From: Candidatus Zixiibacteriota bacterium
GTDB lineage: Bacteria > Zixibacteria > MSB-5A5 > GN15 > FEB-12
Direction: 5' to 3'
DNA length: 64,000 nt
Assembly (NCBI GenBank): GCA_017999435.1
Contig: JAGNLV010000001.1
Location: forward strand, 455,938 to 519,937
In this document: positions 4,989 to 20,665 of the stretch, one piece after another
Layout: each line of letters opens with the position of its first letter
Numbering within the stretch: the stretch's first letter is position 1
Program-made: the position numbers and the translations under genes
The notes under the pieces: generated by a model
Seen by the model: the letters and a program-made list of their open reading frames with translations, nothing else
Told to the model about the DNA's origin: nothing
Databases searched by the model: none

Positions 4989-5495
4989 ATGACCGGCAAA
5001 CGCACCGATTATATCAATTGGGAAGAGTACTTCATGGCGGTGGCGCAGCTCTCGGCCCTCCGCAGCAAGGATCCCAGCACCCAGGTGGGGGCCTGCATCG
5101 TCAACCGCCGCAAGCACATCATCGGGATCGGCTACAACGGCTTCCCCGTCGGCTGCTCCGACGACGAGTTGCCCTGGGGGCGCGAGGGGGACTTCCTGGA
5201 CACCAAGTACGCGTACGTCTGCCACGCCGAGATGAACGCCATCACCAACGCCTCCCACAAAGGGGAGCTGGACGGCGCCACGCTCTACGTCTCCCTCTTC
5301 CCCTGCAACGAGTGCGCCAAATTGATCGTGCAGGTGGGCATCCGGGAAGTTGTCTACCTGGCGGACAAGTACCGCGACCAGCCCGTCTTCATCGCCGCGC
5401 GCCGGATCTTCGCCATGGCCGGCGTCGCCTGCCGCGAGATGACACCCGGACACCTGGACATCCATCTGACCCTGCGCAAGGACCGTCTCCCGTAG
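4989..5495 (+). CDS. Deoxycytidylate (dCMP) deaminase family protein
   Basis: A 168-residue cytidine/deoxycytidylate deaminase-fold enzyme that would convert dCMP to dUMP for dTTP synthesis in the cytoplasm. The zinc site is His79 with the catalytic Glu81 (CHAEMNA) plus Cys106 and Cys109 (PCNEC). The N-terminal [10 protein letters not shown] and SKDPSTQVG motifs are typical of the dCMP deaminase/ComEB group. ATG 4989 is preferred over an in-frame TTG at 4953 because that TTG is itself the -35 box. The gene ends 12 bp before the convergent sprA stop. A ComE operon protein 2 name is also possible, as the two families are not separable here. Confidence 0.9.
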
Positions 5496-5507: not shown

Positions 5508-8500
5508 CTAGAAGCGGATCTCCATCCAGATCTGGACCTCCCGCAGGTGCGTCTTCTGGTTGCTCACGTTTGAATCCCGCCACCGCATGCTCAGGCCCCC
5601 CTTGATCTGCTGGGAGAAGGTGTAGGAGATGTCGGGGCGGATTTCCATCTCGTCGTTCTCGGTGATGTTGTTGACGTTCCCTTTGGCGTCGAACGTCCGG
5701 TTGACGCTGTTGTTGAATTTGATGTCCAGCGAAATGTTGACGGTGGAGCGGAACTTGACTTTGCCAAAGAGCGGCAGGCTGATCCCGCTCGGAGCGGCGA
5801 ACGAATACTGCGCCGAGCCGCCGATCGTCTTGCGGATCGCCTCGGAGCCCCCGGTGTAGGCGCCCGTGGTGCGGTTGTACTCGTCCGACTCCTCGTTCGA
5901 CAGCGAGTACGACGTGGTCAGCGAGAGCGCCTTGAACAGCTTGAAATTGAGCGACAGCAGCGGGCTCTGCGAGGTGCTCGTCGAGCGCGAGATGACAAAG
6001 TCCCCGCCCAGGTCCCGCCGCTCCCGGGTTGACCGGCTGTACGAGGTGCGCGGGGAAAAGATGTCGATGAACTTGTTTACCGGCTTCTTGATCAAAGGCA
6101 GCGTTGTGAACGGCCTGATCTGAATCGTCAGATCCGGCCACGACGTCGATATGTCCTCGTACAGGTCTCCCTTCTTCACCAGGTCGCGCGTGATCCCCTG
6201 GCGGTACTTCACCGTCGTCTGCAGCCCCCCGAGGAGCGTGAATCCCGATCCGAAATCATACGACACCCCCTCGCTCGCGCTCGGGTTTGTCGACCCGGCC
6301 GTCTGCGCCACCCCCGGCGTCCGGCTCAGACCCAGCCGGTACTTCAGCCCCGGCCGTTCCACCGACCCCGGCAGGGCATAGCGGAACGTCTCGCTGTAGT
6401 TGTACGATGGCGCGTCGATCCAGCCGGTGAGGAAACGGAGCACCGCCAGCGGCGGATCGTAGAACGGCCTCCCCGCCTTCACCTCCCCTTCCGTCTTGCT
6501 CCCGCGGTCCGACCGCCCGCCGCTGATCCCGCCCTTCCCGCGGTAGCGGCGCTCGTCCTCCCCGCCCTTGCCGCCGAGGAAGCGCATGTGGTCGAAGCGG
6601 CCCGTCAGATTCCAGCTGCTGCTCATGGTCGACCGCCGCGCCCCCGATGACCGTTCGAGGTCGTCCGCGTACGAGCCGCTGAACCCGAAATCGGTGCTCA
6701 GCCACGACACCAGCGCCGGCGTGTACTTCGCCGTCGCCTGCTGATCGAAGTGCGTTTCCCGCCCCAGGCGCAGGTGGCTCAGCGACAGGTTGACGTCCTT
6801 GGGATCGCTCAGGTCGCGGCGCGTGTTCGCCCGGAACGACAGGTCCAGATTCTGGAGCAGCTCGTAGGCGAAATCCATCTTGGCGTCCAGCGACCGCTGG
6901 AACGAGGTCCGCCGCTTCCCCTCGATGTCGTCGGTGATCGTCAGGGTCCGGTCGAAACCGCCGCTGAGGGTCCACCGGCTCGGGTACAGACCCACCGCCG
7001 TCCCCGCCAGCCGCTTCACAATCGGCACCGACTCGGTCCACCGGAGCGGAGCCACGGCGAGCGGTTTTTTCAGACCGAAGTCGAACCCCGAGCGGACGCT
7101 GTAGCCTTCGGTCAGACCGTACGGCACGCGCGGCGACTGCTGCAGCGACCGCCGGTACGAGAACGAGGTCCCCTGGAGGCGGTTGAGCAGCAGGGTGAAC
7201 AGCGGATTGCGGCCTGCCTTGTTCACCTGCCCCGACACCGAGATCATTTGCGATTCCGACACCACCTGCTCCTGCCGCCGCACCTCCTCCGGCAGCACGA
7301 TGTCCGACCCCGTGCGCAGAAGGGGCAGCTGGGTGGATTTCGAATACGAGTAGGTCACCGGAAGGCGCGCGTTCCACGACCGCGGCACAAACTGGTCGGC
7401 GTTCAGCGAAAACGAATACATGACCCGCGTGTCCGAACTCCCGCTCCCGAGGTTCTGGTCCGACCCGCCCCGCGTCGAACTCGACAGCCCCCGGAAATAC
7501 GGATCCTGCGTCTGGTAGGTGAAGGAGTACGAGCCGAGGTCGGCGACGTTGCCGTTGGCGGCGAACCGCACCGCCGTTCCCACGTCCTTGCGCACGTCGC
7601 TCACGCGCAGCTCGTCCAGCCAGATTTCGCCCGAGGGCAGCCGGCTCGGGTCGCTGTTGACGATGCCGGCCACGAAGTACTTGACCTCGTTGAGACTCGG
7701 ATCCCCCCTGATCCGCTGCCGCCCGTCGGGCGTCACCGTGTCGACGGCCGCCCACTCCTGTGGCTCGCGCCCGCGCTGCGCGGCGTCCTTGATGGCCGTG
7801 ATTTCGTTGAAGTCGATGTCGACGAAGTTTTCCGGATCCCAGCCCTCGCGGAGCACACGGCGCTGCTCGTAGTAGTTCAGGGAATCGCGTCCCACCCGGA
7901 AGAAGAACAGCACGTTGTTGTAGTCGCCCGGGTCCTGGAGCCGGCCGTAGACATACATGCGCAGGCGGCGGTAGCCCGCGTACTTGTCCACCTGGAGCAC
8001 GCTCTTGCGCACCTCGAGCGTGTCCCGCGAATCGAGGTTGCTGAACTCCAGCATCATCCCCCGCTGCGGCTCGGTCACGTTGGTGGTGGGATCGGTGTAC
8101 GGCTCCACGCCCGGCGGCGGCCGGAAGCGCCCGTCCTCCTCGCTGATGGTCGCCGCCACCAGCTGGCTGCCCGTCTCCTCCGCCCCGTAGATCACCGTGT
8201 CCCGCCAGTAGGACTGGACGAAATACCAGTCGGCGATTTCCACCGTGTCGGTCCACGTCTGGCCCGGCATCTGCTCAAACCAGATGCGCACGTGCCGGAT
8301 GCGCTCGCCCGTCCACGCCGGCGCCAGCGCCGCCGAATCGCCGTCCTCGTCGATCACGATCCGGTCGAGAAACTCGGGATCCCGGATCGGGATGCGGTAG
8401 GTATACCAGGGGGGGTTGATCCCGCCCCCCTCGCTCTCGTCCGCGCTCACCTTGTACGACGAGAGGTCCCGGAAATACTTCGTCTTGGTCGTGTCGAGGG

Positions 8501-11500
8501 CCGTGTCCGCGGGCGCCGAGAAATCGATCACGTACGAGAAGTAGCCGTTCTGCTTTTCCAGCCCGCTCACATCGCCGAGAATCTCCGCGTCCGGCCGATT
8601 CAGGTTCTCCAGCTCGACCCGGTTCCCCTCCGTGCCGTTCAGCCACTCGTACCGGAGCGAGTCGTTGTTCCAGTCCAGCCCGCTGCAGGTGGGCAGCGGA
8701 CACTCCCCCTCATCCTCCAGAAACCAGTTGTCACGGTTGGGATCGGGATTGAACAGCGGGTGGTAGTGCGGTTCCAGCTCGTCGGGCAAACCGTCCAGCC
8801 CGATGTCTTCCTCCGGCAGGAATTCCCCCGTGGGCGGCCGATCCTCCGTGTACGCCTTCCCGTCGCCGTCGACATCCTCGCTGATGCGGCCGAACTCGAC
8901 GTGCATGCGCCCGGACCGGCCGCGCGCCCGGATCTCGAACACCTGCACCCGGTCGTTGTCCACCCGGTTGGCGAAATAGCGCATGATGCCCGCCCAGGAG
9001 TCGTACGTCAGATCCTTCGAGGTATCCGGCGGGGTCCAGACCGTCTGCCCGGTGTCCGGCTCCTCCGCCCAGACGCTGTCGACGACGTTGGGCCGGAAAA
9101 TGAGCCGCAGGCTCCGGAACGTCGACTCGCCGGCCGCCGTCTCCCGGTTGTAGACCTGGTCGAAACGCAGGAGGCGGTCGGGATTGTGCCACAGCAGCCG
9201 CCCGCGCTCCCCCTCCCCGGTGAACGGGTGCGCCGGCGCCGACGACAGCGTCCACTGCGTCCGCGCTGTCCCCAGCGTCATCTGCTCCGCGCTGGCCTCG
9301 AAGTCGTCCACGTACGCCTCGCCGTCCACGTTCGGATTCGGCCGCGACTGCGCAACCTCGGCCTGCAGGCGGAGGTTGGAGGGGGACTCGGTCTGCACGA
9401 TCGGCAGCGCGTCGGCCAGCCGGGTGAGGAAGTTCGGCCGCAGCGACCAGGTCGCGTCGGCGTCGAACACGTACGACTTCGCCGTCTCCTCCCCCACCCG
9501 CGGCTTGCGGTCGCGCGCCTTGTCCGACTTGTACAGCACCGTCGATCCGATCTTGAGATCCCGGCTCACCTCGTACTCCGCCCGGAAACCCAGCAGCGTC
9601 TTCTTCTGCACCGACAAAAACGGGGCGTACTCGAAGTCGATGGCGACGTCGGCGTTCGGGTCGCGCGCCTGCTCCGAGATGAGCGTCACCCGCCCGAAGT
9701 CATAGTCGATCCGGTAGTCCTCCCCCCGCACGAGCTGCACGCCGTTGGCCGTGATGCGCTCCGACCCTTCGATGATGTTCGCCCGCCCCAGCCGGATCTC
9801 GCTGCTCCGCGACTTCGTGAACAGCTTCAGAAAATACTGGCTCGCGTTGGTCCGCTGGATGTCGCCGTCGTAGTAGTAGAGGTTCGGGACCTTGAGGTCC
9901 AGCGGCTGCGTGGTGCTCCCCTGCGCGTCGGTGAAGGTCGTGTCGCTGTTGAAGGGTTCCCGGTGCGGGAAAATGAGCAGACCCCAGTCGTACGCCCGGA
10001 ACACCTCCGGCCGATCGTCGATCTTCCCGTCCGGCTGCTTCAACTGATTCGAGCGGCTGTACTGGTCGAGCCCGAGGATTTCGATGTAGCTCTGGGTCCC
10101 CGCGGGCGTCTCCTGGTAGTCCTTGGGCGTCGAGGTGTTCTCGGTCGCCGCCAGACCCTTGTAGATCTTGACGTCGATGTCGTCGATATTCGTGCCCATG
10201 GGCAGCGCGTAGCAGTTCCGCCACATGAGCCCCCAGGTTTTGAACGACGGCATCGAGTTCTCGTTGAACAGCAGTTTCAGCCGCTTCGGATTCTCGAACG
10301 TCCCGTCGGTGTTGGACCCGATCGTGTCGACCGCCCCGCCCGCCCGCTTGACCTCGAGGTACACGCCGATCGACAGGTCGCGCGGCTGCTGCAAAAACAC
10401 CAGGTAGTGCCGGTTCGAATCCGGCTTGCTGAACCACTCGAACTCGTCGTCCTCGACCGGGATCACGCCGGCGTCGATGGCCGTGAGATCCACCCGCTCG
10501 GTCGAGTAACGCGCGCTCGCCGAGGTGCTGTCGGGGAACACCTCGAGCGTCGCGTAGGCGGCGTTCGCCGGCCGCTCCTTCTGCCATGTCTCCAGCTTCC
10601 GGTACACCAGCAGGCGCGTGATTTCGTCTCCCGGCTGGAATTCGCCGGGCAGGCCGATGTCGAAGATGCGCCGCTGCGCGTATTCGGAGTCGCGGATGAT
10701 CTGGGCGCTCTCCTCCCCCGTCGGCGTCACCGTCGTCCGCTCCGAGGAGCCCTTCTCCTGCGACGCAATCCCCGTCAGGTACAGCCGCCCGACCTGGGCC
10801 TCGGCTTTGACACCGAACAGGCCGCGGATCTGCGAGGAGTAGCCGACAAACTGGGTGTTGGGCAGGCTCAGGTTGGTGTTCCCCGCCTCGATCGTCTTGA
10901 GAACGTCGTCCTCATCCCCCTTGTAGCGGATCATGATGTTGTTGGACAGCGGGAGTTCGGTGTGGCTGTCCTGGGACACTTTGACCGTGATTTTCGAGCC
11001 GATCGTCCCCGTAATATCGAACTGGTACTGCTGCTCCATGTTGAGCGAGGGGAACTTGCTCTGCTTGATCGACACCCCCTTGGCGTCCGTCCACTGCGAC
11101 CGTCCGGCAAACGAGATGCGCCGGTAGCCGCTCACGCGCAGGCCGGCCCCGCCCTCGCCGAAGATCCGGTCGAGCCGCTTGGGCAGGTTGATCTTGACCC
11201 CCAGCCCTCCCTGTCCCCGGTTGGCGCGCGCCTGCTCCATCTGCCGCTTGGCGATCTCGTCCCGGCGCTCGTGCACCAGCTGCTCCCGGCGGAAGGCATT
11301 GTAGGAAAGCGCATCCACTGCCACCGGCGTGAGCGACTTCTGCTCTGACCCCCGGCGATAGTAGCTCTGCTGAAAGCGGAGAGTCTTCTCTTCGTAGAAC
11401 GATTCGGTGTTGGCCGTCTTGCGTTCCAGGTCGAACGAGAGGCGGGGATAGATGGGATCGGCGAGGGCAACGGACTTGCGGTCCGGCGGCAGTTGGTAGG

Positions 11501-11639
11501 TCGAAACCCACGAGGGCGGGGTCTCGAGCCGCCACGCCAGTCCCGATGCGGCCCATGCGGAACCGGCCGCCGGCAGCGCGAGGCAGAAAATCAACGGCGC
11601 GTACAGACGGCGCCATGCAGAGAACGCTTTCACAACCAC
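5508..11639 (-). CDS. sprA: SprA-like outer-membrane translocon of a type IX secretion system
   Basis: A 2043-residue exported protein, somewhat shorter than the roughly 2400 residues usual in Bacteroidota. It has a signal peptide (LIFCLALPAAGSAWA). Residues about 140-300 match the SprA N-terminal domain (GLGVKINLPKR, FDITGTIGSKITVKVSQDS, DVLKTIEAGNTNLSLP, RGLFGVKAEAQVGRL). A second module with LVRGEDYRIDYDFGRVTL lies near residues 620-690. The rest is beta-rich and ends in a barrel-type EIRF. In T9SS, SprA is the giant outer-membrane barrel through which cargo exits. It lies 61 nt downstream of murB. The start is uncertain: GTG 11639 is given and GTG 11633 is equally good. The only strong Shine-Dalgarno sequence is about 45 nt upstream. 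Confidence 0.9.
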   Translation of the reverse strand: MVVKAFSAWRRLYAPLIFCLALPAAGSAWAASGLAWRLETPPSWVSTYQLPPDRKSVALADPIYPRLSFDLERKTANTESFYEEKTLRFQQSYYRRGSEQKSLTPVAVDALSYNAFRREQLVHERRDEIAKRQMEQARANRGQGGLGVKINLPKRLDRIFGEGGAGLRVSGYRRISFAGRSQWTDAKGVSIKQSKFPSLNMEQQYQFDITGTIGSKITVKVSQDSHTELPLSNNIMIRYKGDEDDVLKTIEAGNTNLSLPNTQFVGYSSQIRGLFGVKAEAQVGRLYLTGIASQEKGSSERTTVTPTGEESAQIIRDSEYAQRRIFDIGLPGEFQPGDEITRLLVYRKLETWQKERPANAAYATLEVFPDSTSASARYSTERVDLTAIDAGVIPVEDDEFEWFSKPDSNRHYLVFLQQPRDLSIGVYLEVKRAGGAVDTIGSNTDGTFENPKRLKLLFNENSMPSFKTWGLMWRNCYALPMGTNIDDIDVKIYKGLAATENTSTPKDYQETPAGTQSYIEILGLDQYSRSNQLKQPDGKIDDRPEVFRAYDWGLLIFPHREPFNSDTTFTDAQGSTTQPLDLKVPNLYYYDGDIQRTNASQYFLKLFTKSRSSEIRLGRANIIEGSERITANGVQLVRGEDYRIDYDFGRVTLISEQARDPNADVAIDFEYAPFLSVQKKTLLGFRAEYEVSRDLKIGSTVLYKSDKARDRKPRVGEETAKSYVFDADATWSLRPNFLTRLADALPIVQTESPSNLRLQAEVAQSRPNPNVDGEAYVDDFEASAEQMTLGTARTQWTLSSAPAHPFTGEGERGRLLWHNPDRLLRFDQVYNRETAAGESTFRSLRLIFRPNVVDSVWAEEPDTGQTVWTPPDTSKDLTYDSWAGIMRYFANRVDNDRVQVFEIRARGRSGRMHVEFGRISEDVDGDGKAYTEDRPPTGEFLPEEDIGLDGLPDELEPHYHPLFNPDPNRDNWFLEDEGECPLPTCSGLDWNNDSLRYEWLNGTEGNRVELENLNRPDAEILGDVSGLEKQNGYFSYVIDFSAPADTALDTTKTKYFRDLSSYKVSADESEGGGINPPWYTYRIPIRDPEFLDRIVIDEDGDSAALAPAWTGERIRHVRIWFEQMPGQTWTDTVEIADWYFVQSYWRDTVIYGAEETGSQLVAATISEEDGRFRPPPGVEPYTDPTTNVTEPQRGMMLEFSNLDSRDTLEVRKSVLQVDKYAGYRRLRMYVYGRLQDPGDYNNVLFFFRVGRDSLNYYEQRRVLREGWDPENFVDIDFNEITAIKDAAQRGREPQEWAAVDTVTPDGRQRIRGDPSLNEVKYFVAGIVNSDPSRLPSGEIWLDELRVSDVRKDVGTAVRFAANGNVADLGSYSFTYQTQDPYFRGLSSSTRGGSDQNLGSGSSDTRVMYSFSLNADQFVPRSWNARLPVTYSYSKSTQLPLLRTGSDIVLPEEVRRQEQVVSESQMISVSGQVNKAGRNPLFTLLLNRLQGTSFSYRRSLQQSPRVPYGLTEGYSVRSGFDFGLKKPLAVAPLRWTESVPIVKRLAGTAVGLYPSRWTLSGGFDRTLTITDDIEGKRRTSFQRSLDAKMDFAYELLQNLDLSFRANTRRDLSDPKDVNLSLSHLRLGRETHFDQQATAKYTPALVSWLSTDFGFSGSYADDLERSSGARRSTMSSSWNLTGRFDHMRFLGGKGGEDERRYRGKGGISGGRSDRGSKTEGEVKAGRPFYDPPLAVLRFLTGWIDAPSYNYSETFRYALPGSVERPGLKYRLGLSRTPGVAQTAGSTNPSASEGVSYDFGSGFTLLGGLQTTVKYRQGITRDLVKKGDLYEDISTSWPDLTIQIRPFTTLPLIKKPVNKFIDIFSPRTSYSRSTRERRDLGGDFVISRSTSTSQSPLLSLNFKLFKALSLTTSYSLSNEESDEYNRTTGAYTGGSEAIRKTIGGSAQYSFAAPSGISLPLFGKVKFRSTVNISLDIKFNNSVNRTFDAKGNVNNITENDEMEIRPDISYTFSQQIKGGLSMRWRDSNVSNQKTHLREVQIWMEIRF

Positions 11640-15421: not shown

Positions 15422-15450
15422 TTGTTTTTTCACCCCCGCAAGCGTATCAT
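15422..15450 (+). promoter_or_regulatory. Promoter of the selenocysteine tRNA gene
   Basis: TTGTTT (15422-15427), 17-bp spacer, TATCAT (15445-15450), then six bases (GCCCCC) before the first nucleotide of the tRNA at 15457. This predicts transcription starting exactly at the mature 5' end. Confidence 0.65.
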
Positions 15451-15456
15451 GCCCCC

Positions 15457-15553
15457 GGAAGCGGATGCTGTCTGGTGGCGGTCCCGGCCTTCAAAGCCGT
15501 GTGGGGGGCAGTCGTACTGTCCCCGGTGGGTTCGATTCCCACCCCTTCCGCCA
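15457..15553 (+). tRNA. selC: tRNA-Sec, anticodon TCA
   Basis: A 97-nt tRNA with encoded CCA. Bacterial tRNA-Sec hallmarks are visible: 5' GGAAGCGG, a six-pair D stem (GCTGTC/GGCGGT) closing a four-base TGGT loop, the anticodon loop CTTCAAA containing TCA, a long variable arm (GGGGGCAGT/ACTGTCCCC) and a T arm GTGGG-TTCGATT-CCCAC. It would insert selenocysteine at UGA with SelA, SelB and SelD, none of which is in the window. Oddities: the 3' acceptor strand is CCCTTCC, one base short of the CCGCTTCC that would pair with GGAAGCGG, leaving C6 unpaired. One C-U mismatch lies in the anticodon stem. Identity is firm; integrity is less certain. Confidence 0.9.
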
Positions 15554-15583: not shown

Positions 15584-16162
15584 ATGGCAGTCGAGAATCC
15601 GGATCATGAGGGTGCGGCGAGAGCGCGCGTCGAGCAGGGCCGTACGCGCCTGCGCATCTCGGTCGCCCTGGCCACGTCAGAGGGAGCGCGCCTCCACCTC
15701 ACCGCACTGTTGGTCATCTGGGCGCTGGGGGCCGCGTTCGCGGTCGCCTCGCTCATCGTCCGTTTCCGCCCGCTCGGCCCGCCGATCGTCCATGTCGCCT
15801 GGCTCGCCGCCGGTCTGCCGGTGCTGTGGGCCTACACCCGCTTCGCCGTCGGCCGCGAGATCATCTCCCTCGGCCGCGGCGCGCTGACCATCACCCACCG
15901 CCCCATCCCCCTGGGCTTTGCCCGCCGCTACCGGCTGGCCAACGCCCACCGCTTCCGCGTCGACACCGCTGGTCTCCGCATCGCCAACGTGCGGCACCGC
16001 CGGAACCCGCTCCGCTGGCGCGGCGAGCAGGGGATGATCCTGTTCGATTACAATCTGAGACCCGTGCGCTTCGGCGTCGGCCTGAGCACCGCCGAGGCCC
16101 GGCGCCTGCTCCAAGCGATCCGCGACAGCGGCCAGGTTTCCCCGGAGCAGGTGGAGTTGTAG
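15584..16162 (+). CDS. Two-pass membrane protein with a beta-rich (PH-like) cytoplasmic domain
   Basis: A 192-residue protein. After a charged N-terminal stretch come two hydrophobic helices (about residues 37-60, LLVIWALGAAFAVASLIV; and 68-90, VAWLAAGLPVLWAYTRFAV). A soluble domain of alternating beta segments follows (GALTITHRPIPLGFARRYRL, MILFDYNLRPVRFGVGL) and ends in a helix. The arrangement resembles bacterial PH/DUF2244-type membrane proteins, but no family is assigned with confidence. GGGAGG lies about 17 bases before ATG 15584, farther than usual. The gene begins 30 nt after the tRNA and may be co-transcribed with it. Confidence 0.7.
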   Translation: MAVENPDHEGAARARVEQGRTRLRISVALATSEGARLHLTALLVIWALGAAFAVASLIVRFRPLGPPIVHVAWLAAGLPVLWAYTRFAVGREIISLGRGALTITHRPIPLGFARRYRLANAHRFRVDTAGLRIANVRHRRNPLRWRGEQGMILFDYNLRPVRFGVGLSTAEARRLLQAIRDSGQVSPEQVEL

Positions 16163-17195: not shown

Positions 17196-17918
17196 CTAGA
17201 TCGACCGCACCGGCATCGTCTGGGGATCGTCGACCAGGATCGCTTCCTTGATTGTGAACGCCTCCGCGTACCTCACCCCCGCCATGTGGCCGAGATTCGC
17301 CCCGCGGTCGCGCATGAGGTCGAACACGGTCACGCCCGGGTGGAAGATATTCCGGGCGATGTTGTTGTCCGAAAACTGGGAACGGTAGGCCCCCACCGCC
17401 TCGCACTTCTTCTCGAAGTGCGCGGAGATGTCGACGAGAAAGGAGAACTCGCGGTTCCGGAAATAGGAGGCATAGATGATTTTCCGCGGCCGATGCGGTT
17501 TCCCGGCGAGGTCGATCTTTGTCAACCCGGCCAGAAAACAGGCGTCGTAGCCGAGCCGGCTGGCCGCCAGGTGGTCCGGGTGCCGCTGTTCCCAGTGGGG
17601 GAGAATGACCAGTTCGGGACGGTGGTCCCGGATGTACTGGGCAATGACCAGCTTGTTGGCCTGAGTGTATTCAATCGCCGCGTCCGGCATCCCCGCGTTC
17701 TCCCGCCACGCCAGCCCGAGCACGCGCCCGGCCGCGGATGCTTCCGCGTCCCGGTCCGCCTCGGTCCCGTAGGTCCCGGCCTCCCCCCGCGCCAGGTCGA
17801 GCACCCCGGTCGCCCGCCCCAGCGCAGCCAGCTTCAGCAGCGTCCCGCCGCAGGTGATCTCGGCGTCGTCCGGGTGGGCCGCGATCGCCAGCACCTCCAG
17901 CCGCCCCGCCTCAGCCAC
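17196..17918 (-). CDS. bshB1: Bacillithiol biosynthesis deacetylase BshB1
   Basis: A 240-residue LmbE/PIG-L family zinc deacetylase. It would remove the acetyl group from GlcNAc-malate made by BshA, the second step of bacillithiol synthesis. Zinc-site motifs are AHPDDAE (His15, Asp18) and RHPDH (His113/His116). The segment RGEAGTYGT and the C-terminal GVRYAEAFTIKEAI are typical of BshB1. GTG 17918 is chosen because GAGGAGG lies just upstream and the start overlaps the bshA stop by eight bases, indicating translational coupling. LmbE proteins act on various N-acetyl sugars, but the context with bshA and bshC makes the assignment strong. Confidence 0.93.
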   Translation of the reverse strand: MAEAGRLEVLAIAAHPDDAEITCGGTLLKLAALGRATGVLDLARGEAGTYGTEADRDAEASAAGRVLGLAWRENAGMPDAAIEYTQANKLVIAQYIRDHRPELVILPHWEQRHPDHLAASRLGYDACFLAGLTKIDLAGKPHRPRKIIYASYFRNREFSFLVDISAHFEKKCEAVGAYRSQFSDNNIARNIFHPGVTVFDLMRDRGANLGHMAGVRYAEAFTIKEAILVDDPQTMPVRSI

Positions 17919-19041
17919 GGAGCACCTCCTCGTAGTAGCGTTCGTATTCGCCGACAATCCGCTCCGCGCCGAACTTGACCGTCGCGCTCTCGATCGCGGC
18001 CTTGCGGAACTCGGCCAGCCGTTCGGGGTGGCGCAGGAGCGACACCGCCGCCCGCGCCATCGAGGTCGTATCCCCGACCGGCAGCAGGAACCCGTTGCGG
18101 TAATCATCCACCACCTCGGCCAGGCCGGTCCCGGAGGTGCCGATCACCGGCACGCCACAGGCCAATGCCTCCAGCGCGGCCAGCCCGAACGACTCCTCCT
18201 CCGAGGGGATCAGGAACAGATCGCAGCAGGGCAGCACCGCCTCGACCCGGCTCTGGTTTCCCAGGAAAATCACTTTCGCCCCGAGGTCCCGCTTGGTAAT
18301 CTGGCGGCGCGCGAGGATCGTGTCGGGCCCCTCGCCGATCAGCACGAGCTTGGCCGGCAGCTCGGCCGTGATCTTGGCGAAAATGTCGATCACGTCGAGG
18401 GTCCGTTTCACCGGACGGAAATTGGAGACGTGGCACACGAGAAACTCTTCCGGCCGGGCAAACTCCGACCGTGCGCAGTCCCCCGTCGTCGGCTTGAACC
18501 GCTTCTGGTCGACGAAGTTGTGAATCACCCTGATCTCCTTGCCGAGCTTGAACACCTCCTCGGTCTCGGCCGCCAGGTAGCGCGACACCGCCGTCACGCC
18601 GTCCGAGGTCATGATCGAAAACCGGGTGATGTCGAAGAACGACGGGTCGGCGCCGACCAACGTGATGTCCGTGCCGTGGAGCGTCGTGATCACCTTGGGC
18701 GCCCGCCCGCCCCCCGCCAGGAGCATCTGCCGGGCCAGGTAGGCCGAGGCCGCGTGCGGGATGGCGTAGTGCATGTGGAGCACGTCCACGCCGAAACTCC
18801 GTGTCACCTCCGCCATCTTCGCCGCCAGCGTGAGCGTATAGGGCGGCGACTTGAACAGCGGATAGGCGGTCGTCTCCACCCCGTGGTACAGCACGTTCGT
18901 CTGGTACCGGTCGAGCCGGAAGGGGATGGCGTAGGAGATGAAGTGGACCTGGTGCCCGCGCAGCGCCAACTGCTGCCCGAGCTCGGTGGCCACGATGCCG
19001 GACCCTCCGGCCACCGGGTAACACGTGATGCCGATAACCAT
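17911..19041 (-). CDS. bshA: N-acetyl-alpha-D-glucosaminyl L-malate synthase BshA
   Basis: A 376-residue GT4 glycosyltransferase joining UDP-GlcNAc to L-malate, the first step to bacillithiol. Visible features include IGITCYPVAGGSGIVATELG at the N terminus, VLHMHYAIPHAASAYLAR, TTLHGTDITLVG, the HVSNFRPVKR donor-site segment and the EESFGLAALEALACGVPVIG nucleotide-sugar motif. These are near-diagnostic for BshA. ATG 19041 has AGGAG about ten bases upstream. It lies between bshC (13-nt gap) and bshB1 (8-bp overlap). Confidence 0.96.
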   Translation of the reverse strand: MVIGITCYPVAGGSGIVATELGQQLALRGHQVHFISYAIPFRLDRYQTNVLYHGVETTAYPLFKSPPYTLTLAAKMAEVTRSFGVDVLHMHYAIPHAASAYLARQMLLAGGGRAPKVITTLHGTDITLVGADPSFFDITRFSIMTSDGVTAVSRYLAAETEEVFKLGKEIRVIHNFVDQKRFKPTTGDCARSEFARPEEFLVCHVSNFRPVKRTLDVIDIFAKITAELPAKLVLIGEGPDTILARRQITKRDLGAKVIFLGNQSRVEAVLPCCDLFLIPSEEESFGLAALEALACGVPVIGTSGTGLAEVVDDYRNGFLLPVGDTTSMARAAVSLLRHPERLAEFRKAAIESATVKFGAERIVGEYERYYEEVLRG

Positions 19042-19054
19042 ATCTGTTGGGCTC

Positions 19055-20665
19055 CTATACATCCGACAGCGGAATAAGCTGGTGCGCCGCCGTCTCGCTG
19101 TCAAGCCGTTCGTGCGCGAACCGGACAAAGGCCGGGCCGAACTTGGCCAAAAAATATCCAATATTCAGCGCCCGCTCCTGCAGGCCCCGGTGCGGGTACA
19201 ACACCCGGTGGAGGCGGTAGAGGCGCTCGCGCACCTCCCCGAGCCGCCGTTTGTGCGCGGCGAACACCTTGCCCTCGAACTGCACGATCTGGAAATCGAT
19301 CCTGCCGGCCGCCTGCGCGGCCGCGCTCTGAAGCTGCGGATCGAACCCGAGCGTCTGCGCCGCCAGCGCCTCGAACCGCTCCCGGACCTCCCGCCGCGCC
19401 TCCCCGAACGCCTGTTCGAGATCGGGGGGAAACGACTCCGCCGTCACCCGGTTGACGACCTGCTCGATATCTCCGGCCAGCTCCTCCAGCGTGATCCGGT
19501 GCTGCGCCATCATCGCTTCGTAGCGGCGCTCGACGAATGTGGCCGAAGGCCGCGCGCGGTACACCGGCGCCGGCCGCCCGAACAGCTCGAACAGCGGCGT
19601 CACCTGCGCGAAATAGGCGATCTCCGAGGGTCCCCCGTGCTGGGCCGCCGCGGGAAACAGCCACGACTGCATCACCGGCCGCGTCAACACGTCGGGCGAG
19701 AACCGCTCCGGCTCCTGCGCGATCATGGCGCGCAGATCCGCTGCCGTGACCGCCCGGTCCCCGATGCGGAAGCCGCCGCCGCTCTGCCGCAGCACCGGCC
19801 GCCGGCCGTCGCGCGCGAAAAACAGGTGCACAGACTCGTCCTTCTTCTCCACCTGGACGTGGTACCCGTGGCTGCGGAGGTTCTCGTTGGTCCGGCCGAC
19901 CAGGGCGCGCACTTCCTCGTGCCGCTCCGCGAGCGCCTGAAGGAGCGGCGCCGCGAGCGCCTTGGCCTCCGGATCCGCGGGCGAGAACAGGACGAGCCCG
20001 AATTCCCCCAGGAGCGCAGTCATCAGTTTCGCAAAGGCGCCGACAAAGGTCTCCTCCGGAGTGTAGCAGCGGTCGATCAGCCCGTAGAGGGCCGGGGTGA
20101 ATTCCGTCTCCCCGAGTGCTTCGCGCAGGCGCGCTTTGGCCGCCGCGAGCGCCTCGGCGTCGGCAAAACGGATCTCCGCCGCCGGCGCCGCCTCCGCCGG
20201 AGCCGTCGGGTAGACGATCTTCACGGGCTCGGCCGCGGCCCGGTCCGGCACCCAGGTGTGGTTGATTTCCGCGAAATCGTGGTCGTCGGCGGCAATCCAG
20301 AAAATCGGCACGGCGGGCCGCCCGAGCTCGCGGCCGATCCGCCGCGCCGCCTGGATGATCCCGAGCGCCTTGATCTGCACCAGCAGCGGCCCGCCGAACA
20401 GCCCCGCCTGCTGCCCCGCGAACACCGCCACCGCCCGCGGGTCGCGCAGCCGCTCGATCGCCGCCAGCGTCGGCTCGCCCGCCCCCCAGGCCTGGTTCTG
20501 CCGCCGCAGGATGTCCGCCGTCCGGTCGCGCGCATAGACGGCGCCGTCGAGCCGCGCGGCCACGGCCGACAGGTTGTCGGGCGTATAAAAGTGCCGGGCC
20601 GTTTCCCGGCCCGACACGAAATCAAGATACAGTTCGCTGTAGCCGAGCGCCTTGCCCGGCGTCAC
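19055..20665 (-). CDS. bshC: Putative cysteine ligase BshC
   Basis: A 536-residue protein of the BshC family, which adds cysteine to GlcN-malate in the last bacillithiol step. Family features include FAGQQAGLFGGPLLVQIKAL, PIFWIAADDHDFAEINHTWV (with its acidic-His cluster), the ALLGEFGLVLFSPADPE segment, a coiled-coil region and the C-terminal VLYPHRGLQERALNIGYFLA. Length agrees with known BshC. The start is GTG 20665, only four bases after the stop of the upstream RND pump gene, so expression is probably coupled to the pump. Together with bshA and bshB1 it makes the pathway complete. Confidence 0.95.
   Translation of the reverse strand: MTPGKALGYSELYLDFVSGRETARHFYTPDNLSAVAARLDGAVYARDRTADILRRQNQAWGAGEPTLAAIERLRDPRAVAVFAGQQAGLFGGPLLVQIKALGIIQAARRIGRELGRPAVPIFWIAADDHDFAEINHTWVPDRAAAEPVKIVYPTAPAEAAPAAEIRFADAEALAAAKARLREALGETEFTPALYGLIDRCYTPEETFVGAFAKLMTALLGEFGLVLFSPADPEAKALAAPLLQALAERHEEVRALVGRTNENLRSHGYHVQVEKKDESVHLFFARDGRRPVLRQSGGGFRIGDRAVTAADLRAMIAQEPERFSPDVLTRPVMQSWLFPAAAQHGGPSEIAYFAQVTPLFELFGRPAPVYRARPSATFVERRYEAMMAQHRITLEELAGDIEQVVNRVTAESFPPDLEQAFGEARREVRERFEALAAQTLGFDPQLQSAAAQAAGRIDFQIVQFEGKVFAAHKRRLGEVRERLYRLHRVLYPHRGLQERALNIGYFLAKFGPAFVRFAHERLDSETAAHQLIPLSDV

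Follow-up and report, generated by a model that had tools for sequence, protein, structure and literature searches.

The window analyzed here is a 64-kb stretch (64,000 nucleotides, nt) of contig JAGNLV010000001.1 from a Candidatus Zixiibacteriota bacterium, and the element in question is its gene for selenocysteine tRNA (tRNA-Sec), whose promoter is predicted to place the transcription start at base 1 (G1) of the mature form. ARAGORN found a single tRNA gene in the window, tRNA-Sec with the anticodon TCA (15457..15553, + strand); its start was called one base early, with C-1 taken as base 1. The Rfam model RF01852 matched at 15457-15549 with 67.9 bits (cut-off 47), which, together with the UCA anticodon and G73, identifies a bacterial tRNA-Sec. 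The acceptor stem reads GGAAG-C6-GG against CCCTTCC, with base 6 unpaired. At the 3′ end, read directly from the + strand, C72 lies at 15549, G73 at 15550, and the encoded CCA at 15551-15553.

Upstream on the same strand, a -35 element TTGTTT (15422..15427), a 17-nt spacer (15428-15444), and a -10 element TATCAT (15445..15450) were read directly. They are followed by the six-base gap GCCCCC (15451..15456; positions -6 to -1, the discriminator), which has C at -1. The initial annotation had placed TTGTTT-17-TATCAT six bases before G1, and these coordinates were borne out. With -35 and -10 hexamers and a spacer within 16-18 nt, the site fits a sigma70-type promoter. The predicted transcription start is G1 of tRNA-Sec (15457, + strand), the seventh base past the -10 element, with a pyrimidine at -1, a purine at +1, and G at +2. 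When -35, -10, and spacing were combined in a log-odds score, 16 of 127,920 window positions on both strands equaled or exceeded the tRNA-Sec site (1.3e-4 per position), so that the chance of such a match at a gap of 5-7 nt is about 4e-4. Taken alone, the promoter of the window is modest; the comparative evidence is far stronger.

Promoter distance in Zixibacteria and other bacteria

tRNA-Sec genes were searched for in 132 genomes of the class Candidatus Zixibacteria and taken with their flanks. For each gene, the promoter with the best -35/-10/spacer score was chosen at any gap of 0-40 nt before G1, giving a chance of 1/41 per gene for any one gap. The best promoter stood at a gap of exactly 6 in 71 of the 102 genes of the full set (12 of 19 families). 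In the first set, 67 of 88 genes had this gap (binomial probability 5e-89, uncorrected for relatedness), and the spacer was of the optimal 17 nt in 53 of these 67.

The gap-6 genes were reduced to 55 non-redundant ones, with pairwise identities below 60% over 45 nt. Their spacers and far upstream regions were 25-27% identical (the random level), compared with 75% at the -10 element, and relatedness therefore does not explain the shared gap. T-T-G/T at -35..-33 was kept in the 55 genes, and TAT..T at -12..-7 relative to G1 was kept across the class. Positions -6 to -3 were almost without information, while base -1 was a pyrimidine in 55/55 (75% C), as in all 71 gap-6 genes, and +1 +2 were GG. 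Bacterial transcription prefers to start 7 bp past the -10 element, with a pyrimidine at -1, a purine at +1, and G at +2 (PMC5730371). The gap-6 tRNA-Sec genes agree with all these published sequence rules for a start at G1. In three families, f12 (L116, L117, L433, L434), f13 (L049, L119, L425), and f14 (L121, L426), the promoter was found 9-11 nt before G1. This geometry predicts a leader of just 3-5 nt, which would be either an intermediate state or a loss of exact placement.

The ordinary tRNA genes of the same genomes served as a control. In the same scan, a gap of 6 was observed for 1/41 of them in the host genome and 1/29 in five relatives (total 2/70; Fisher p = 9e-21 against tRNA-Sec). 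The 37 ordinary tRNAs with strong promoters had gaps of 10-53, none of them 7 or less, and the gap differed between genomes for one and the same amino acid (Lys: 10, 17, 17, 30, 33, 39). Promoter distance is thus not frozen in these genomes and is held only for tRNA-Sec. Base -1 was a purine in 7/30 ordinary tRNAs of the host genome, and never in the 71 gap-6 tRNA-Sec genes. Leaderless tRNAs as a genome-wide property were rejected, the ordinary tRNAs having distant promoters.

Acceptor stems were compared between the window (15457-15553) and the class loci L031-L060, L074-L133, and L421-L435. The class stem is 5′ GGAAG-N6-GG against 3′ CCCTTCC or TCCTTCC, and N6 is A, C, or T but never G in 102 genes, so that base 6 stays unpaired. 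G73 was invariant in the 92 class genes checked and could pair with the base at -1, which is most commonly C. Acceptor/T arms of 12 bp that contain a bulged base have been published (PMC5330540); the bulge was accordingly rejected as a novelty, and Zixibacteria are a class-wide case of this variant. CCA was unencoded in 58/92 class genes, and TTTT occurred no more than 12 nt past the tRNA discriminator in 41/92, where the tRNA fold and the T-run may end transcription right at tRNA-Sec. The gene of the window encodes CCA and has no such T-run.

Outgroup samples were drawn without selection for promoters, and about 2/30 genes at gaps of 5-7 were expected by chance. Such gaps were observed in 14/30 Anaerolineae tRNA-Sec genes (ten at gap 7), 7/21 Desulfobacterota, 4/30 Acidobacteriota, and 1/19 Clostridia. 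The selC gene of E. coli belongs to the same tRNA family and shares G1 G2, C at -1, and G73 with the Zixibacteria genes, but its TATAAT lies 31 nt before G1, implying a leader of about 25 nt where most Zixibacteria genes have the gap of 6. The Acidobacteriota, Clostridia, and Desulfobacterota counts and selC rule out a close promoter as universal in bacteria. The arrangement thus belongs to particular lineages: Zixibacteria conserve it, and many Anaerolineae have it. Among the 80 matches listed from a pattern scan built for the leaderless layout were about 44 from Chloroflexota, 13 from Zixibacteria, 8 from Bacillota, and 7 from Acidobacteria; as the scan was aimed at this layout, these phylum counts tell where it occurs and not how often. 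The cultured Anaerolineae strains Anaerolinea thermolimosa IMO-1 and Thermanaerothrix daxensis were among the matches. Two tRNA-Sec-like genes are present in some genomes of Anaerolineae and Acidobacteriota (G206:C193 5359-5495, G228, G366); in G206 they are about 100 nt apart.

Predicted initiation at G1 and competing explanations

RNase P (ribonuclease P) is regarded as the maker of bacterial tRNA 5′ ends. We estimate a probability of roughly 0.84 that the tRNA-Sec gene has a sigma70-type promoter of its own, from which transcription starts at G1 with no 5′ leader, and that RNase P is bypassed. The promoter would position RNA polymerase to start at G1, the first base of mature tRNA-Sec; the primary transcript would be leaderless at its 5′ end, begin with pppG, and need 3′ trimming only; and RNase P, used for the other tRNAs of the cell, would be skipped for tRNA-Sec alone. 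We infer from the sequence that transcription starts at G1, that RNase P does not process the product, and that the product begins with a 5′ triphosphate, which could be cleaved off later. The start at the first base, proposed in the initial annotation, gains support as a prediction from the fixed gap of 6, the pyrimidine at -1, the GG, their conservation within diverged flanks, and the contrast with ordinary tRNAs.

The host genome (3.5 Mb, 98% complete) contains the RNase P RNA gene rnpB (284.6 bits), the RNase P protein gene rnpA, and SelB (313 bits, above the cut-off), so the cell is expected both to decode selenocysteine and to carry out ordinary maturation of its tRNAs. Loss of RNase P was therefore rejected as the cause of the leaderless layout, and the presence of these components points to a gene-specific bypass. 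A plausible reason for the start at G1 is that RNase P may have difficulty with tRNA-Sec, given the odd acceptor/T arm of this tRNA and, in most of these genes, a C-1 that could pair with G73. Leader bases adjacent to the cleavage site that pair with the 3′ end inhibit bacterial RNase P, although the threshold observed was two pairs (PMC9433436). A start at G1 would remove the C-1:G73 pairing issue and fix the 5′ end without RNase P.

Several observations weigh against initiation at G1. The -35 element of the window is weak, agreeing with the consensus TTGACA at 3/6 bases, and for this reason the tRNA-Sec site was absent from the output of a standard consensus promoter scan of the window, which calls for caution. 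The scoring matrix was E. coli-like and may not reflect the preference of the Zixibacteria sigma factor. The gap of 6 is not universal in the class either: families f12-f14 stand at 9-11, f9 mostly at 8, and in f5, f8, and f11 the scan gave no clear tRNA-Sec promoter. Either the trait is open to loss, therefore, or it arose after the class did.

The bypass could also be partial. With a mixed supply, the close promoter would start at G1, and a second upstream promoter or readthrough would add a leadered precursor trimmed by RNase P. This is compatible with the RNase P of the host genome, with the several starts per gene frequent in bacteria, and with the clearly leadered state of the other tRNAs in these genomes. 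However, the upstream gene recG is divergent from tRNA-Sec, the intergenic space is short, and the consensus scan shows no second promoter-like site between the two genes, which makes a mixed supply unlikely.

Less probable still is mere inertia, by which a short distance was inherited unchanged, the exact 5′ end is unselected, and the start may wander by 1-2 bases. A 6-nt interval does offer few sites for insertions and deletions, and gaps of 7-11 exist in some families. Against this stand the -1 pyrimidine of all 71 gap-6 genes beside random bases at -6..-3, the widely varying promoter distances of other tRNAs over the same evolutionary depth, and the similar peak in Anaerolineae, and we regard inertia as very improbable. 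Coincidence, with the real start elsewhere and a normal leader processed by RNase P, could appeal to the site having been missed by the standard scan but is scarcely credible for a geometry common to 71/102 relatives (5e-89 for 67/88, with the relatedness caveat given above) and scoring at 1.3e-4 per position within the window.

Other genes of the window

A consensus promoter was found 5-8 nt before the start codon in 4 of the 38 predicted genes of the window, compared with 0-2 at other distances. The four start codons lie 6-7 nt past the promoter, at 4989 (+ strand), 12651 (- strand), 17135 (- strand), and 40162 (- strand), and the mRNAs beginning there are likely leaderless, judging from this spacing. 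The initial annotation had likened the tRNA-Sec promoter to those of leaderless mRNAs, and in silico the likeness holds. Bacterial leaderless mRNAs have the same promoter geometry and differ in that their +1 is the start codon, whereas here it would be G1 of the tRNA.

A 192-codon open reading frame (ORF; 15584-16162, + strand) begins about 30 nt past tRNA-Sec; it is preceded by GGGAGG and matches no Pfam family. As no terminator was detected in the interval, tRNA-Sec and the ORF may be cotranscribed. On the - strand, 17196-20665 holds bshC (Pfam match) with an adjoining glycosyltransferase ORF and a deacetylase-like ORF; the latter two are probably bshA and bshB, and the three genes would then form a cluster for bacillithiol synthesis. 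Elsewhere, at 5508-11639, there is a SprA-like ORF.

Precedents and significance

Eukaryotic tRNA[Ser]Sec is made from an upstream promoter as a 5′ leaderless pre-tRNA of which only the 3′ end is processed (PMC6627462), and the eukaryotic precedent invoked in the initial annotation is thus right. An archaeal one can be added: Nanoarchaeum equitans is without RNase P, and all its tRNAs are leaderless, with a 5′ triphosphate, through a strict promoter distance (PMC10100707). For bacteria the initial annotation was aware of no such tRNA, and likewise no report was found in the literature searched, most subscription journals being outside its coverage.

Zixibacteria resemble eukaryotes (TRNAU1) in that tRNA-Sec alone is leaderless, here by prediction, and the remaining tRNAs are left to RNase P. 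The promoters differ: RNA polymerase III with TATA, proximal and distal sequence elements (PSE, DSE), and an internal box B in eukaryotes, and sigma70-type -35/-10 elements here. As in N. equitans, promoter spacing would put +1 at tRNA position 1, with a gap of 6 in this case; unlike in that archaeon, which lacks RNase P and makes every tRNA leaderless, the layout concerns tRNA-Sec only, and rnpB and rnpA are present. The Zixibacteria tRNA-Sec would work like both precedents and is a member of neither, having a sigma70-type promoter and a host with RNase P. Because leaders are retained in E. coli and in the Clostridia sampled, common descent with the eukaryotic trait is not indicated. More tentatively, and with the odds somewhat against it, leaderless tRNA-Sec may have arisen repeatedly, in eukaryotes, Zixibacteria, and Anaerolineae, because RNase P cleaves this tRNA poorly; in these bacteria the mature tRNA-Sec may also retain its 5′ triphosphate, tolerated or used by SerRS, SelA, and SelB, and so be distinguished from all other tRNAs of the cell.

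If the predicted start is true, a whole bacterial class exempts from RNase P the same tRNA as eukaryotes do, a clear case of convergent solutions. It would also raise the question of what sets tRNA-Sec apart: the long or bulged acceptor arm, the C-1:G73 pairing, or a use of the 5′ triphosphate. The combination of a gap of 6, a pyrimidine at -1, and GG provides a testable rule by which genomes and metatranscriptomes can be searched for tRNAs that do without RNase P.
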